Positions 19,970 through 53,174 of a stretch of DNA of 64,000 nucleotides are shown piece after piece. Each line of letters begins with the position of its first letter. The first letter of the stretch is position 1. This DNA comes from Paracoccaceae bacterium (GTDB lineage Bacteria; Pseudomonadota; Alphaproteobacteria; Rhodobacterales; Rhodobacteraceae): positions 1 through 64,000 of the forward strand of contig JADHOV010000013.1 in the NCBI GenBank assembly GCA_016778765.1. The letters are read 5' to 3'. The notes under the pieces were generated by a model. That model was not told the DNA's origin. It saw nothing but the letters and a program-made list of their open reading frames with translations, and made no database searches. The position numbers and the translations under genes are program-made.

Positions 19970-20948
19970 AAATTCAATCTGGTACTGGTCGGACAAAACG
20001 GGCGGCTGGAATTTGAAGTGATCCTTTTTTTAGCCTCGCTGCGGGCCAATAGCCCAAAATTCGCAGGGCAGGTGTTTATTGCTGAACCGCGCTTTAACCA
20101 AGCCTGGACGAATAACCCAATGATCCGCTCTCAGCACACGCAAAATTTGATTGCAGAGCTTGGTGCAGAATTCATTGCCTTTGACAATAAGGTTTTCGGC
20201 GAAAGCTACCCCTACGGAAACAAAATAGAATGTTTAACAGCCATTCCCGACGACAAACCCTTTTTGTTTTTTGACAGCGATACGCTGATCTTGGATGAGC
20301 TATGCGATGTGCCCTTTGATTTTTCTCGCCCAACTGCCTCGCTGCGCCGCACGGCAACTTGGCCACAACCTTTGGGGCCAGGGCATCACTATTCGGATAT
20401 CTGGAAAGATTGTTATGACATCTGTGGCGTAGACTATCCTTCTTCGCTTGATAAACAATTTTCAGCTCAGGATTGGCGACGGTACTTATATTTTAATGCC
20501 AGCTTTTTCTTTCACGAAAACCCAACTAAATTCGGCGCGCGCTTCCTAGAGTTTGCCCAAAGGATCAAAACCAGCACGCGCCCTCGGATCACCCGACAAT
20601 CTTTAGACCCTTGGCTGGACCAAGTGGCTTTGCCCATGGTTATTCACAGCTTTGGGGGGGGGCAAACACACGCTTGCTCGGGGATGGCTGGACGCAAAAA
20701 CCAGCTGTCATTATCGCAGAATACCCCTTCTTTACGCTCGAGAGGATGACCGGGTCATCGCTAAATTGGAACAACTTGCAGACCAAAGCAACATCCGCGC
20801 GCGTCTGTCGCAGCACCCAGCTTTTCAGCGGATGATTTATCAAAAACAAGGGCGCCGTTTGCGCGGAATGATTGATCGCAGCCATCAACCAATCTGTGAG
20901 GTTGCGCTGCGTAATAAATTAAAAGCTTTGGGGTATTGGATCCGCTGA
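19970..20948 (+). pseudogene. glycosyltransferase-like protein, frameshifted at a G9 tract
   Basis: A coherent protein can be read from KFNLVLVGQNGRLEFEV through VALPMVIHSFGGG in one frame, then KHTLARGWLDAKTSCHYRR to LRNKLKALGYWIR in another. The switch falls in a run of nine G at 20654-20662; eight G would restore one frame. The sequence FLFFDSDTLILDEL holds a DxD-like motif typical of GT-A glycosyltransferases, but I do not know the family. The only start in the first frame is GTG 20018, although coding similarity seems to extend 16 codons upstream, so the N-terminus may also be damaged. It could be a pseudogene, a sequencing error in the homopolymer, or a phase-variable gene. Confidence 0.6.
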
Positions 20949-22468: not shown

Positions 22469-23185
22469 CTATTCCGGCTTGGCCACTATTTCATACTGAG
22501 CAATCACCGACTGCCTGAACACAACTTCTTTTGGCACAATTCCCGCCTCTGACAAGCCGCGCTGCGCGCTCAAAAAACCGGGAGGTCCACTGCGCTCGGC
22601 GACACTATCGGTCAGGCTGATCAATTGGCCCAATTTCACATCTGCAGCCTCTGCATAATCCTGCGCTTTTACCAGCGCGTCTTTCATGGCGTTTTGTCGA
22701 GCTTGGCTTTGCCAACGAGCCTCATCCTTGGTTAGAAAAAGCAGATTTCCCAATGCCGTTACCCCAAAGTCGAGGCCGATTTGAACAATTTCTGGAAAGG
22801 CAGGAAGATGGTTGATTGTGACCTCCAGCCGCGTAGTGGCGCTATAATCCAGCAATTTAGGTGGTTGCCGATCAATATATTAAAAATTTGGTGACAGTGA
22901 TAAAACCGAGCTTGCCAGATCCTCTTTGGGCAAGCCAAAAGCTTCAAGGGCGGCGAGGATTGAGGCTGTTTTTGAACTGAGCGCGCTCATTGCTGAGGCC
23001 GGTGCATCAGCGCGGGCTTCAATTGTCCAGGTCAACTTTGCCTGGTCAGGTTTAACCTTGACCACTGCCACGCCGGTGACCGTCAGCATTCTGACAGGCT
23101 GGGTTGCGAATGCCAGCTGCGATGAAAAAATCAAACAGACCGCGAGGTAAATGATATTTCTGCATATAAAATGTTTAAAATACAT
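22469..23185 (-). pseudogene. SIMPL-domain (DUF541) protein interrupted by one in-frame TAA
   Basis: From ATG 23185 (GGAG eight bases upstream) the frame encodes a signal peptide (IIYLAVCLIFSSQLAFA) and VRMLTVTGVAVVKVKPDQA, then KLTWTIEARADAPASAMSA, the hallmark start of DUF541/SIMPL proteins. After LSLSPNF there is a TAA (complement 22880-22882), and the same frame continues YIDRQPPKLLDYSATTRLEV to QSVIAQYEIVAKPE. Only one base change separates it from an intact protein of about 238 residues; CAA (Gln) would fit. SIMPL proteins are periplasmic or membrane-linked with poorly known roles. Either a recent pseudogene or a sequencing error. Confidence 0.75.
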
Positions 23186-23352
23186 GACCGCTCCTTCATT
23201 TCCAGCAAGGGATTTACGCCACGTGACAGACACAACTATAGCGCAATTTTATGCCTGCCGCGATAGTTTTGCTTTTCCCGCACGCCATCCTAGTCTAGAA
23301 GGACGTAGTCGCGGTCCAACCGAGCCTTGCTGTAAAAGATAAACTCGAGCAA

Positions 23353-42278: not shown

Positions 42279-42452
42279 AAATCCTTATCGTTTAAGGTTG
42301 GCTTTCGTTGTGACAGGGCATCCCCTGTTTGGTCAAGCCAGAGCTTTTAAAATTAGCAAAAGCTTGCTTGACGATGAACGCAAGACGCGCCACAACAGCC
42401 CATACCCGCAACCGGGCGCATGGTCGGCGCCAAAATGACGAGGAGGCATCTG

Positions 42453-44399
42453 ATGTCCCAAATTACGCTCACCCTTCCAGATAACAGCAAGCGTAGCTAT
42501 GCGGCCGGGATAACCGCAGCCGAAGTGGCCAATGATATTGCGACATCGCTGGGCAAAAAAGCTATTAGCGCAACGCTAGACGAAGCTCATTGGGATCTGC
42601 AATGGCCCATCGAAAACGACGCCGCAATCGCTATCAACACGATGAAAGACGTGGCACCTGCGCTGGAGTTGGTGCGCCATGATCTGGCGCATATCATGGC
42701 CCGCGCCGTGCAAGAGATTTGGCCCGACGTAAAGGTGACAATCGGCCCAGTGATTGAAAACGGTTGGTATTACGATTTTGACCGCACCGAGCCATTTACC
42801 CCAGAAGATCTTGGTTTGATCGAAAAAACTATGAAAGCCATCATCAATAAATGCGAGGCAGTTCGCACAGAAATCTGGTCGCGCGACAAAGCCGTGCAGC
42901 ATTATACCGATTCGGATGAACCCTATAAAGTTGAACTGATCGAGGCGATACCGGGTACAGAGCCTCTGCGCATATATTGGCATGGCGATTGGCAGGATCT
43001 GTGCCGTGGGCCACATTTACAACATACAGGACAAGTGCCGGCCGACGCGTTTAAGCTGATGTCGGTGGCCGGTGCTTATTGGCGCGGCGATAGCAATCGC
43101 GCCATGTTGCAGCGTATTTACGGCGTGGCGTTTTTGAATAAAGAGCAGCTAAAAGCCCACCTGCATATGCTGGAAGAAGCCGCAAAGCGCGACCATCGAA
43201 AATTAGGCCGCGAAATGGCTCTGTTTCACATGCAAGAAGAGGCCCCCGGACAAATTTTTTGGCATCCAAATGGCTGGAAAATATATACCACGATCCAAGA
43301 TTATATGCGCCGCCAACAAACACGGGACGGCTATGTCGAAGTCAATACCCCCCAAGTGGTGGATCGCAAATTATGGGAAGCCTCTGGCCATTGGGAAAAA
43401 TACCAAGAACATATGTTTATTGTTGAGGTCGATGAAGACCATGCACGCGAAAAAGCCGTCAATGCGCTAAAACCGATGAACTGCCCCTGCCACGTACAAG
43501 TGTACAATCAGGGCTTAAAGTCTTACCGCGATTTGCCATTGCGGATGGCCGAATTTGGCAGCTGCAACCGCTATGAGCCGTCTGGCGCGTTGCATGGCAT
43601 CATGCGCGTGCGCGGCTTTACCCAAGATGATGCCCATATTTTCTGCCGCGAAGATCAGATCGAATATGAAACAAAGAAATTCATCAATTTTCTTTCAAAT
43701 GTATATGAAAATTTGGGTTTTGAGAAATTCGCTATTAAATTCTCGGATCGGCCCGAGCAACGATCGGGCAGTGATGCGGTATGGGATCGCGCCGAGGCCG
43801 CTTTAAAATCGGCCACGGAAGCGGCCGGTTGTGAGTTTGAACTTAACCCAGGCGAAGGCGCATTTTATGGCCCAAAATTAGAATTCGTGCTGACCGATGC
43901 CATCGGGCGTGATTGGCAATGCGGGACTTTGCAGGTGGATTTCGTTTTACCCGAACGGCTTGATGCAAATTATATTGGTGAAGATGGGGATAAACATCGC
44001 CCCGTGATGCTGCACCGCGCTTGCTTGGGCTCTTTTGAACGCTTCATCGGTATTTTGATCGAAAACTTTGCTGGAAAGCTGCCGTTTTGGTTGGCCCCGC
44101 GGCAAGTTGTGGTGGCGGCAATCGTTTCGGATGCGGATGAATATTGCCGCGAAGTGGTTGCTTTGCTGACTCGCTTGGGAATTCGGGCCGAGCTTGACTT
44201 GCGCAATGAAAAAATCAATTATAAAGTGCGTGAGCATTCAGTGGCAAAAGTACCTGTTATTTTGGCCTGCGGAAAAAGAGAAGTTGAAAACCAAACCGTC
44301 TCAATTCGCCGTCTTGGCGAAACGCAAACAAGCGTCGCCCCGTTAGATGAGATTGCACAATCGCTGAAAACAGAGTCTGTAGCGCCTGATTTAAGATAA
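42453..44399 (+). CDS. thrS: threonyl-tRNA synthetase
   Basis: 648 residues from ATG 42453, which has an excellent GAGGAGG ribosome site nine bases upstream; an earlier in-frame start at 42420 is therefore rejected. Domain order is standard: TGS domain ([16 protein letters not shown]), editing domain with [18 protein letters not shown], then the class II catalytic core ([22 protein letters not shown] with the zinc Cys, [20 protein letters not shown] for motif 2, and motif 3 near [17 protein letters not shown]), and the anticodon-binding domain. Essential translation enzyme. The dyad that follows (44437-44460) may terminate it or serve the next operon. Confidence 0.97.
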
Positions 44400-44580: not shown

Positions 44581-44892
44581 ATGTCAGAACATCTAAAAAC
44601 AAAAATCTTGGTCGGGGCCGTAGCCGTTGCCTTGAGCTCACCTATGGTTGCTACCGCTTCATCCCACTCTGGTGCGAAAGAAAAATGCTATGGCGTATCC
44701 CTAGCCGGCCAAAATGATTGCGCTGCAGGCGCAGGCACAACCTGCGCAGGAACCTCAACCGTGGATTATCAAGGCAATGCCTGGACATTGGTGGAGGCAG
44801 GCACCTGTTTGGAAATCGAGCTGCCAAATGATGCAGCCGATCAAGCCCGTATGGGATCTCTCACAGCCTTAGAGCGCGATCTGCCCTCTTAA
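44581..44892 (+). CDS. bufA1: DUF2282 bufferin precursor (BufA1/GigA type)
   Basis: 103 residues from ATG 44581, with CAGGAG ahead. A signal peptide ([20 protein letters not shown]) is followed by a cysteine-bearing core: [15 protein letters not shown], then [19 protein letters not shown] and [11 protein letters not shown], four cysteines in the DUF2282 pattern. In other proteobacteria such proteins are substrates of the adjacent DUF692 enzyme, are exported, and are reported to bind copper after cysteine modification (bufferins; also called GigA in gold-induced operons). Assignment rests on the pattern plus the intact gene order that follows. The C-terminal tail after LEIELP is short and acidic. 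Confidence 0.88.
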
Positions 44893-44943
44893 CGGGCTCG
44901 ACCGACTTTCCAGCAATCTCCAAAGATGAACCAAGGAACGCCG

Positions 44944-45804
44944 ATGCCGGATCTTATCGCACACTCACTTCCCACCAGCATTGGCGTCGGGTTTAAATCT
45001 CAACATTTCAACGATATTTTATCTGGCCCGCATCCCGTTGGATGGATAGAAATTCACGCTGAAAATTATTTGGGCGAAGGCGGGCGCCCAATCTCTCAAT
45101 TGCAATATTTACGGGCTGAGCTGCCAATCTCGGTGCATGCAATTGGTTTATCAATAGGGGGTGAGGCGCCGCTGGATAAGGAACATTTGGCGCGCATCAA
45201 GCATTTATGCGACTGGTTGGAACCAGCAAGTTTTTCCGAACATTTGGCATGGTCAACGCATGCAGGAAATTTTCTAAACGACCTTTTGCCGCTGCCTTAT
45301 ACCGAGAAAACCTTAAAACACGTCATCGGACATATTGATCATGTTCAAGCCACATTGGGGCGGCAGATGCTGCTTGAAAATCCATCAAGCTATTTGCTGT
45401 TTTCAGAAAGTACTTATTCAGAACCTGCCTTTTTAAATGCTGTAGTCGCGCAGACCGGATGCGGGCTTTTGTTAGACGTCAATAATATATTCATCTCATG
45501 CCACAATCTAAACATGTCAGCTGAGGCCTATCTCAATGAGCTAAATTGCGCCGCCGTTGGTGAAATTCATTTGGCGGGGCATTCGACAGATCTTTTGGAA
45601 CAGGGTGGAGATTTGTTGATCGATTCTCATGCTGCGCCAGTAGCAGATCCAGTTTGGAGACTTTATGAAAATATTTTAAGACGCACAGGGCCAAAAGCAA
45701 GCTTGATCGAATGGGATACAAATGTGCCTGAATGGTCCGTTCTAAACGGTGAGGTGATGCAAGCTGCCTGTCTTTTGGAACAGCAAATATGCAAGTATCA
45801 ATGA
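44944..45804 (+). CDS. bufB: DUF692 multinuclear non-heme iron oxidative enzyme (MNIO, BufB/GigB type)
   Basis: 286 residues from ATG 44944, which has AAGGAA upstream; an ATG 18 bases earlier has no ribosome site. TIM-barrel DUF692 landmarks: IGVGFKSQHFNDILSG, GWIEIHAENYLGEGG, LPISVHAIGLSIGGEAPLD, SFSEHLAWSTHAG, QMLLENPSSYLLF, GCGLLLDVNNIFISC and EIHLAGHSTD. These hold the His, Glu and Asp residues expected to bind two or three iron ions. MNIO enzymes modify cysteine side chains in RiPP precursors (for example to thiooxazole or oxazolone-type groups). The substrate here should be the DUF2282 product encoded 51 bases upstream. The stop overlaps the next start as ATGA. Confidence 0.93.
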   Translation: MPDLIAHSLPTSIGVGFKSQHFNDILSGPHPVGWIEIHAENYLGEGGRPISQLQYLRAELPISVHAIGLSIGGEAPLDKEHLARIKHLCDWLEPASFSEHLAWSTHAGNFLNDLLPLPYTEKTLKHVIGHIDHVQATLGRQMLLENPSSYLLFSESTYSEPAFLNAVVAQTGCGLLLDVNNIFISCHNLNMSAEAYLNELNCAAVGEIHLAGHSTDLLEQGGDLLIDSHAAPVADPVWRLYENILRRTGPKASLIEWDTNVPEWSVLNGEVMQAACLLEQQICKYQ

Positions 45805-46565
45805 CACAAAAAGAGCTTTTTACAGCTTGTTTAAACCCCGATCAGCCTTGCCCCGCGCATTTAAAATCCGGCAAACACATCCCTGCTACCAACGGGTTAA
45901 ACATCTACCGAAATAACATAGCCCATGGCTTAATCACTACTTTGGAAAGCAACTTCCCAAAAACAAGAACCATTCTTGGCCCAAAGAATTTTTATTAATT
46001 GGCGCGCTTATACGCCAGTAAAGAAAAACCAAGCTCCTCCCTTTTGTATAAATATGGCGCGGGGTTTTCGAAATTTTTACAAAAGATACCTGCCCTTTCT
46101 AAATTGGGATACCTACCTGATTTGGCCCGGCTCGAACAGCAGATCAGATTGTCTTATCATGCGCGCGACTGCGACTCATATAATTGGAAAAACCTTCTTA
46201 AGCGCCACGATGCAGATATTTTAACTGCATGCTTTCAGTTTGACGCAGCCTGTTTCATCATCCCAACATATTGGCCGCTGGGCATGATTTATCACAAAGC
46301 CCAGTCAGGCGCATCAACGCAGCACCCAAAACGACTTAGTAGCGCAAGCGCGATCCTGATTACACGACCTGAGTTTGACCCCCAGATCACGACGATTCCA
46401 GAAGAACTCATAAACTTTCTGAGCGCATTGGCGGCAGGTCATACATTTCAAACCGCATGCAATATCGGAAAAGCCAGCAGCCCAGCGTTTACGTCCAAGG
46501 CCGGTCTGCAGTTTCTTGTAAATGCAAACTCTATCCACGACATCATATTTAAGGCAGCATTATGA
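45801..46565 (+). pseudogene. bufC: DUF2063 MNIO partner protein (BufC/GigC type) with in-frame TAA
   Basis: The frame from ATG 45801 (overlapping the bufB stop as ATGA) encodes QKELFTACLNPDQPCPAHL, GLNIYRNNIAHGLITTLES, NFPKTRTILGPKNFY, the standard N-terminal DNA-binding-like domain of DUF2063, then TAA at 45996-45998. The same frame continues LARLYASKEKPSSSLLYKYG, AGFSKFLQKIPALSKLGYL, PDLARLEQQIRLSYHARD to the normal C-terminus. A single change (CAA, Gln) would restore 254 residues. The codon after the stop is TTG, so restart there could yield a separate C-terminal half. BufC proteins present the precursor to the MNIO enzyme. The end overlaps the DoxX gene as ATGA. Confidence 0.8.
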
Positions 46566-47113
46566 TCCAACTTATTCAAAATATGAATTCTTTTGCCGAT
46601 AGGCTGGCAGCCAAAATACCCAATCTGTGCTTATTGGCCAGATTTACGTTTGCGGCGGTGCTGTTGGTTTATTTTTGGGCATCAGGCCTCAGCAAACTCG
46701 GCGAGTGGCTGCTGGGGGTGTTCCACCCATCAGCCGGCGCATATATTCAAATTTTTCCCAAACAAATGGAAGCCTTTGGCTATGATCCTGGCCAGTTTGG
46801 CCTGTTCCATTACCTCGTCGTTTTGATGGGTGTTCTGGCAGAATTCCTCATTCCATTGATGATTGTAATCGGCCTTCTCACCCGCTATGCGGCGCTAGGC
46901 ATGATTTTCTTCATAGCCGTACAAACCGCAACCGATCTATTTGGTCACGGGGTGCTTGAGGATCCAACCACTTTAGGCAAATGGTTTGATCGCAGCTCGT
47001 CTTCTGTGATTATGGACCAAAGGCTGCTTTGGCTGTTTGTGTTAGTCTATCTTGTCAAACATGGAGGTGGAGTACTTTCACTTGATCAGTGGCTTACCTC
47101 ACGCAAGGTTTAA
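46562..47113 (+). CDS. DoxX-family membrane protein of the bufferin cluster
   Basis: 183 residues, four membrane segments (LCLLARFTFAAVLLVYFWA, FGLFHYLVVLMGVLAEFLI, LTRYAALGMIFFIAVQTAT, LLWLFVLVYLVKHGGGVL). DoxX motifs are KLGEWLLGVF near the first loop, GLLTRYAALGM, and the D-L-F-G-H segment. The gene overlaps bufC by four bases and completes the DUF2282-DUF692-DUF2063-DoxX order known from gig/buf operons, where the DoxX member (GigD/BufD) may supply redox or quinone coupling. The start ATG 46562 is fixed by the overlap; its stop overlaps the convergent Spx-like gene by four bases. Confidence 0.9.
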   Translation: MIQLIQNMNSFADRLAAKIPNLCLLARFTFAAVLLVYFWASGLSKLGEWLLGVFHPSAGAYIQIFPKQMEAFGYDPGQFGLFHYLVVLMGVLAEFLIPLMIVIGLLTRYAALGMIFFIAVQTATDLFGHGVLEDPTTLGKWFDRSSSSVIMDQRLLWLFVLVYLVKHGGGVLSLDQWLTSRKV

Positions 47114-47424
47114 AGCAACGCGGCTCGCGTTTTCGCGCTCCAACTGAGGTAAAGCTTCTGCTCTTGTGTCTCAATAAGGGGGCGCTTCATCACTGCGGGA
47201 TGAAGGCGCAATAAGTCGCGCGGTGGCATCGCCCGCTCATCCGACGATAAATTGCGCCATGTTGTAGATTTTTTATTGACCAAATCATCGCCAAATTCTT
47301 GCAAAGCAGCGTCTAGAATTTGGTCAGGAATCAAATCAATACGCACATCAAAAAATCTATAGCCATCCAATAACTTAACGGCTTTTCGGCAGGTATCGCA
47401 GTTTTTTAAACCGAATATTCTCAT
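47110..47424 (-). CDS. Spx/ArsC-like (YffB-type) protein
   Basis: 104 residues, thioredoxin-like fold. The N-terminal FGLKNCDTCRKAVKLLDG carries a CxxC motif, and the middle KKSTTWRNLSSDERAM and HPAVMKRPLIET blocks match the YffB branch of the ArsC/Spx family. Such proteins are small cytoplasmic thiol oxidoreductases of uncertain role; the family name arsenate reductase should not be taken literally. It is convergent with the DoxX gene with a four-base overlap at the ends. At 104 residues it is slightly shorter than most relatives. Confidence 0.88.
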   Translation of the reverse strand: MRIFGLKNCDTCRKAVKLLDGYRFFDVRIDLIPDQILDAALQEFGDDLVNKKSTTWRNLSSDERAMPPRDLLRLHPAVMKRPLIETQEQKLYLSWSAKTRAALL

Positions 47425-52289: not shown

Positions 52290-53174
52290 TTAAGCGATCA
52301 AAACGGCTAAAGTGATCGGGATCAGAGCTACCGAGAACAAGGTTGAGATAACCACCAATCCAGCAACCGCTTGCGCATCAGCACCGTATTTCTCTGCCAG
52401 CATATAAGATGTTACAGCGACTGGCGTTGTGACTTGCAGCACCAAAACGGCAAAGGCGATATCAGGTAGATTAAACCACCATCCAGCCGCACAAGCACAG
52501 ATCAAACATCCGGCATATTTGATAATCGCCAACCACGCCACTTTTGAAACCCGCCCCGGCGTTAGGCGGGCCACTGCCACCCCAAGCGTAATCAGCATTA
52601 ATGGAATCGCCATTTGCCCGATCAATTCAAGAGTGTTGGTCAAAAACGGCGGCGTTTCCCAACCCTGCCATAAAAACAGCGCACCTAAAAACGTGGCCGA
52701 AACCAGGGGCTCTTTTACGATTTTAAAGAATGAGCCGCCCCCGGACACGATCCAAATTCCTGCCGTGAAAGAATACATGCCCATAATTGCAAAGATCACA
52801 ACAGCATAGCCAAACCCTTCATCGCCAAAAGCGAAAAATGCCAACGGAAGGCCTACATTCCCAGTATTTCCAAAAATTAATGGCCCCAAATAGGTGCGCA
52901 GATCCAAGCCCGCCAACTTGACCAAAGCAAAACCCACCAATGTTACCAATGCGTAGGCCAGAATGCTTGCAAACACGGTGATTTGCAAAAAACCAGCGTC
53001 AATTTTCGTTTGCATCAGCGCTGTAAAAATTAAACAAGGCACACCCAAACTCATAGACAGACGGGTAACAAACTGCACCCGATACTCAAACCCTAGCTTC
53101 ACCCATAAAAACCCTATAGCCGCCAGAATGAAAACCGGCGCCACAACTTCTAAAACAGAGAAAAGAAGAGACAT
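52290..53174 (-). CDS. AEC-family auxin-efflux-carrier-like transporter
   Basis: 294 residues, about ten membrane segments. Family landmarks: LEVVAPVFILAAIGFLWVK, LGVPCLIFTALMQTKID, GPLIFGNTGNVGLPLAFFAF and the C-terminal LQVTTPVAVTSYMLAEKYG (broken-helix region). AEC members export or import organic acids and similar anions; the specific solute is unknown. It is transcribed leftward, upstream of the SAF dehydrogenase gene with a 171-base gap, so co-transcription is possible but not shown. Confidence 0.88.
   Translation of the reverse strand: MSLLFSVLEVVAPVFILAAIGFLWVKLGFEYRVQFVTRLSMSLGVPCLIFTALMQTKIDAGFLQITVFASILAYALVTLVGFALVKLAGLDLRTYLGPLIFGNTGNVGLPLAFFAFGDEGFGYAVVIFAIMGMYSFTAGIWIVSGGGSFFKIVKEPLVSATFLGALFLWQGWETPPFLTNTLELIGQMAIPLMLITLGVAVARLTPGRVSKVAWLAIIKYAGCLICACAAGWWFNLPDIAFAVLVLQVTTPVAVTSYMLAEKYGADAQAVAGLVVISTLFSVALIPITLAVLIA

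Follow-up and report, generated by a model that had tools for sequence, protein, structure and literature searches.

In this study, we show that a four-gene bufferin cluster of the Buf1 (DUF2282) kind occupies positions 44581-47113 of the plus strand of the window, the whole 64,000-nucleotide stretch of DNA from a marine Paracoccaceae bacterium analysed here, and that its partner gene, bufC, carries a premature in-frame stop codon. The explanation that best accounts for the locus, to which we assign a probability of roughly 0.68, is that it belongs to a Rhodobacterales lineage that is losing the cluster under relaxed selection; we infer that the relaxed selection is that for copper buffering. 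The window holds a damaged member of a common, well-described cluster type (PMC12452194). It is a bufferin cluster in design, and we do not assign it as a functional bufferin pathway because it lacks one of the parts that define such a pathway: no intact DUF2063-RRE partner (PME type 1, about 250-260 aa) was found when this genome was searched for one.

Gene content and relation to known clusters

The genes follow one another in the order bufA-bufB-bufC-doxX, flanked upstream by thrS (42420-44399) and beyond doxX by an ArsC-family gene on the minus strand (47110-47424). The precursor gene bufA (44581..44892, +) encodes 103 aa and matches the DUF2282 profile PF10048 in Pfam (E 5.6e-24; 84.3 bits in a profile search, cut-off 22.4). 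On reading, its N-terminus is a signal-like stretch, and translation confirms the four cysteines that the first-pass annotation had placed in the contexts KEKC, NDC, TTC, and GTC; the protein ends in a 12-residue C-terminal tail. Since its match to the BufA2 model NF050166 (21.3 bits) falls far under the curated cut-off of 60, we take BufA to be of the Buf1 kind. The open gene bufB (44926..45804, +) encodes an MNIO (DUF692) enzyme of 292 aa that matches PF05114 (E 3.2e-100) and exceeds the cut-off of the NCBIfam equivalog model NF050167 MNIO_BufB (367 bits against 310); it aligns with the MNIO structure 3BWW (E 2.9e-38), and the conserved His/Glu/Asp motifs are present in the alignment. The interrupted bufC (45801..46565, +), which was identified by Pfam and by an intact homolog in the same-species genome G001, belongs to the DUF2063-RRE partners (PME type 1); an alternative in-frame ATG at 45789 gives the 258-aa numbering used here. 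Lastly, doxX (46562..47113, +) is open and encodes a DoxX-family membrane protein of 183 aa (PF07681, E 2.6e-8), which scores 30.9 bits against the HvfX-family model NF050144, under its curated cut-off of 80. ATGA overlaps join bufB to bufC (45801-45804) and bufC to doxX (46562-46565). A scan for promoters returned sites no commoner than in shuffled sequences.

These findings bear out the proposal of the first-pass annotation that a bufferin-type cluster in the order DUF2282-DUF692-DUF2063-DoxX lies here, with the last three genes overlapping. The profile searches that it had suggested as a check recovered DUF2282, DUF692, and DoxX; the DUF2063 gene, which it had read as one open gene, is split by a TAA into fragments of 69 aa and 188 aa.

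The locus resembles the bufABC-doxX clusters of Pseudomonadota with a Buf1 precursor in its precursor family, MNIO_BufB enzyme, gene order, tight packing, and DoxX protein. It differs from them in the premature stop in bufC, in having no local sigma factor/NrsF genes, and in the C-terminal GSLxxLxRDLP tail of its precursor, a feature seen across Rhodobacterales. When BufA was read alongside about 70 Rhodobacterales homologs, a conserved tail, roughly GSLxxLxRDLPA, was found after the last cysteine (44820-44889 in the window; loci L011-L083), and its RDLP part is retained even when there are insertions in the preceding stretch. The oxazolin cluster hvfABCX of Haemophilus influenzae likewise combines an MNIO enzyme with a DUF2063-RRE partner and a DoxX-like protein; in contrast to the window, its precursor has EGKCG repeats, and its partner is intact and has been shown to be required.

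Interruption of bufC and its predicted consequence

The in-frame TAA at 45996-45998 (+) truncates bufC at codon 70 of 258, counted from 45789, which places the stop within the DUF2063 domain and upstream of the entire RRE domain. The upstream piece of 69 aa matches DUF2063 in Pfam with 40 bits over the first 54 of 83 profile positions, and the downstream piece of 188 aa has no Pfam match. When the gene is read through, the profile crosses the stop (66.4 bits, with one TAA inside), and because the profile is filled in this way we regard bufC as a single gene interrupted by a stop rather than as two genes. In G001, a complete same-species genome of one 3.7-Mb contig, bufC is intact at 258 aa and identical to that of the window at 771 of 777 positions. 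The codon at the stop site is serine there and in the two other genomes of the genus, G002 and G003, and one base separates the TAA from the intact G001 codon. The stop is known from one assembly. Searches of the window's genome for a second DUF2063, DUF2282, or MNIO gene found one of each only, and thus no extra partner, precursor, or enzyme that could rescue the pathway.

To place the stop in the protein, we used an AlphaFold2 model built on a 31-sequence BufC alignment headed by the G001 protein. The model is confident (pLDDT 94), and its fold matches TglI of the TglHI complex and NGO1945, the first solved DUF2063 structure, and more weakly MbnC and RRE domains; a comparison with the PDB by sequence had given nothing useful, and the fold comparison succeeded instead. 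The stop falls within the helix formed by residues 65-78, and the truncated protein therefore loses the whole RRE domain along with some of the DUF2063 fold.

It has been reported that HvfB, the nearest enzyme to BufB that has been studied, yields no product without its partner HvfC and that the active iron state forms only when HvfC is present (PMC13419390). Moreover, among 4072 genomes with DUF2282, the MNIO gene is present and the PME-type-1 gene absent in only 27 (PMC12452194, Table 3). According to published work on bufferins and oxazolin, BufB and BufC of the ancestral pathway would recognize BufA via its Sec signal peptide and convert its two central cysteines to copper-binding 5-thiooxazoles, and the modified BufA would then be exported to the periplasm, where it would buffer copper. 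In this genome, by analogy with HvfBC, BufB should be inactive since the nonsense mutation leaves BufC without three quarters of its length. BufA, provided that it is expressed at all, should then be exported with its four cysteines unmodified and free of thiooxazoles. We thus infer a loss of the modification.

Lesions and constraint in the genus

The genus is represented in our collection by four genomes, namely the window's genome, G001, G002, and G003. In G002 (Rhodobacteraceae bacterium SB2, LGRT01000037, locus L010), the cluster has the same synteny with thrS upstream, and its BufB is 88% identical to that of the window, but the damage there lies in bufA, bufC, and doxX and not at the stop site of the window. 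An in-frame 15-bp deletion in SB2 bufA removes Cys3, one of the two central cysteines that bear the modification in Buf1 bufferins (PMC12452194); a 1-bp deletion lies close to the 3′ end of its bufC, and an in-frame TGA interrupts its doxX at codon 39, so that three of its four buf genes have been damaged independently. In G003, a 1-bp insertion in bufC leaves BufC four residues shorter, and bufB is open in all four genomes. Within the 64-kb region shared by the four genomes, 4 of the 16 copies of buf genes carry clear lesions, compared with about 5 of roughly 220 copies of neighboring genes, an excess (one-sided Fisher p 0.0015) that is indicative only, given that the copies are not independent and three of the four lesions are in one genome.

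Either bufC or a gene like it occurs in 280 of 395 genomes of the family, so the cluster type is common there. Of the 42 further named clusters whose sequences were read, almost all keep bufABC and doxX open and retain four cysteines in the mature BufA; the exceptions (L018, L023, and L039) are all from metagenome assemblies. Internal bufC stops had been flagged in G056 and G126 and proved to be natural gene ends when the loci were read, and many other TGA flags were set aside, as the model can overrun natural gene ends. The only real in-frame bufC stop among the flagged cases outside the genus is a TAG in the C-terminal part of the gene at L096 (G184), which is likewise from Rhodobacterales.

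Between species of the genus, dN/dS, estimated by pairwise counting, is 0.18-0.45 for bufA, 0.21-0.24 for bufB, 0.24-0.26 for bufC, and 0.14-0.17 for doxX, and it is 0.03-0.18 for most neighboring genes. In close pairs of intact clusters from other Rhodobacterales, limited to dS below 1 (distant pairs were discarded as saturated), the corresponding ranges are 0.03-0.18, 0.03-0.14, 0.10-0.16, and 0.03-0.14. The values for bufA and bufB in the genus are several times the median of those intact clusters, and that for doxX is raised only slightly. Because dN/dS exceeds that of close intact pairs elsewhere, constraint in the genus looks weaker on bufA and bufB and moderately weaker on bufC.

Some further differences among these genomes were observed. 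The window and G001 are nearly identical in bufB and bufC (dS about 0.01), with dS of 0.14 and 0.10 in the flanking bufA and doxX, respectively, a pattern as after recent exchange of the middle segment. A SIMPL-domain (DUF541) gene at 22469-23233 (-) is in two pieces in the window through an in-frame substitution and is a single 238-aa gene in G001, G002, and G003. At 20018-20749 (+), a one-base insertion shifts the frame of a gene that encodes 243 aa in the window and 321 aa in G001 and G003, and a Mem_trans membrane-transport gene at 52290-53174 (-) is intact in the window and split in G001.

Alternative readings and meaning

One alternative is that the stop arose from an error of sequencing, of the consensus, or of strain mixing in a fragmented assembly and that the real cluster is intact and working. 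The assembly consists of 87 contigs and 2.74 Mb, compared with 3.7 Mb for the same-species genome, and the window's genome is therefore probably metagenome-assembled or partial; a single base lies between the stop and the intact codon, and two more genes in the window are interrupted relative to G001. However, random errors would raise the share of nonsynonymous changes, and among 49 genes the private changes of the window's genome (237 synonymous, 92 nonsynonymous) have a lower nonsynonymous share than those of G001 (172 to 95). The TAA in bufC is the sole private internal nonsense change in the same 49 genes, and the sister isolate SB2 carries lesions of its own in this cluster. An assembly error at the stop thus appears possible but is not favored, and we judge it rather unlikely.

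If the stop is real, the cluster might still function through a split BufC, with the 69-aa piece complemented by a C-terminal piece whose translation restarts at the TTG adjacent to the stop (45999), or through low-level read-through. The 188 codons directly after the stop are indeed open and in the same frame, but the cut falls mid-helix in the N-terminal domain of the model, no ribosome-binding site is evident by eye for a restart at this TTG, and none of the other clusters read has a BufC split at this place, which makes such function very improbable. It seems a shade less probable again that BufA is modified here by a BufB that lacks a full partner, or whose partner is split and arises from a restart after the stop; if true, this would be an exception to the rule that MNIOs of the DUF2063 type depend on their partner. 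We give the least credence to BufA acting unmodified as a plain periplasmic thiol peptide with bufB as a leftover. Its open frame and four cysteines would allow such a role, and Antoine et al. noted that rare partnerless precursors may have modification-free activities (PMC12452194), but SB2 bufA itself lacks Cys3, and dN/dS of bufA is raised in the genus.

Loss of the cluster under relaxed selection remains our preferred reading. For this genome, the earlier suggestion of an exported metal-binding protein with modified cysteines is unsupported, because the partner gene is interrupted with no second copy, the sister genomes carry lesions, and HvfB is reported to yield no product without HvfC. 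Some members of the species may still have a working pathway, since BufA, BufB, and DoxX are open here and the G001 cluster is intact. A bufferin cluster that is recognized by its domains need not be functional, and a single stop codon, which is easily overlooked, shifts the prediction from a modified to an unmodified product. The genus, whose four genomes range from an intact cluster through single to multiple damage, offers a small natural experiment that bears on when marine bacteria can dispense with copper buffering by bufferins. With the cluster of the window as a knock-out of the partner made by nature, it also bears on whether an MNIO enzyme depends on its partner in vivo.
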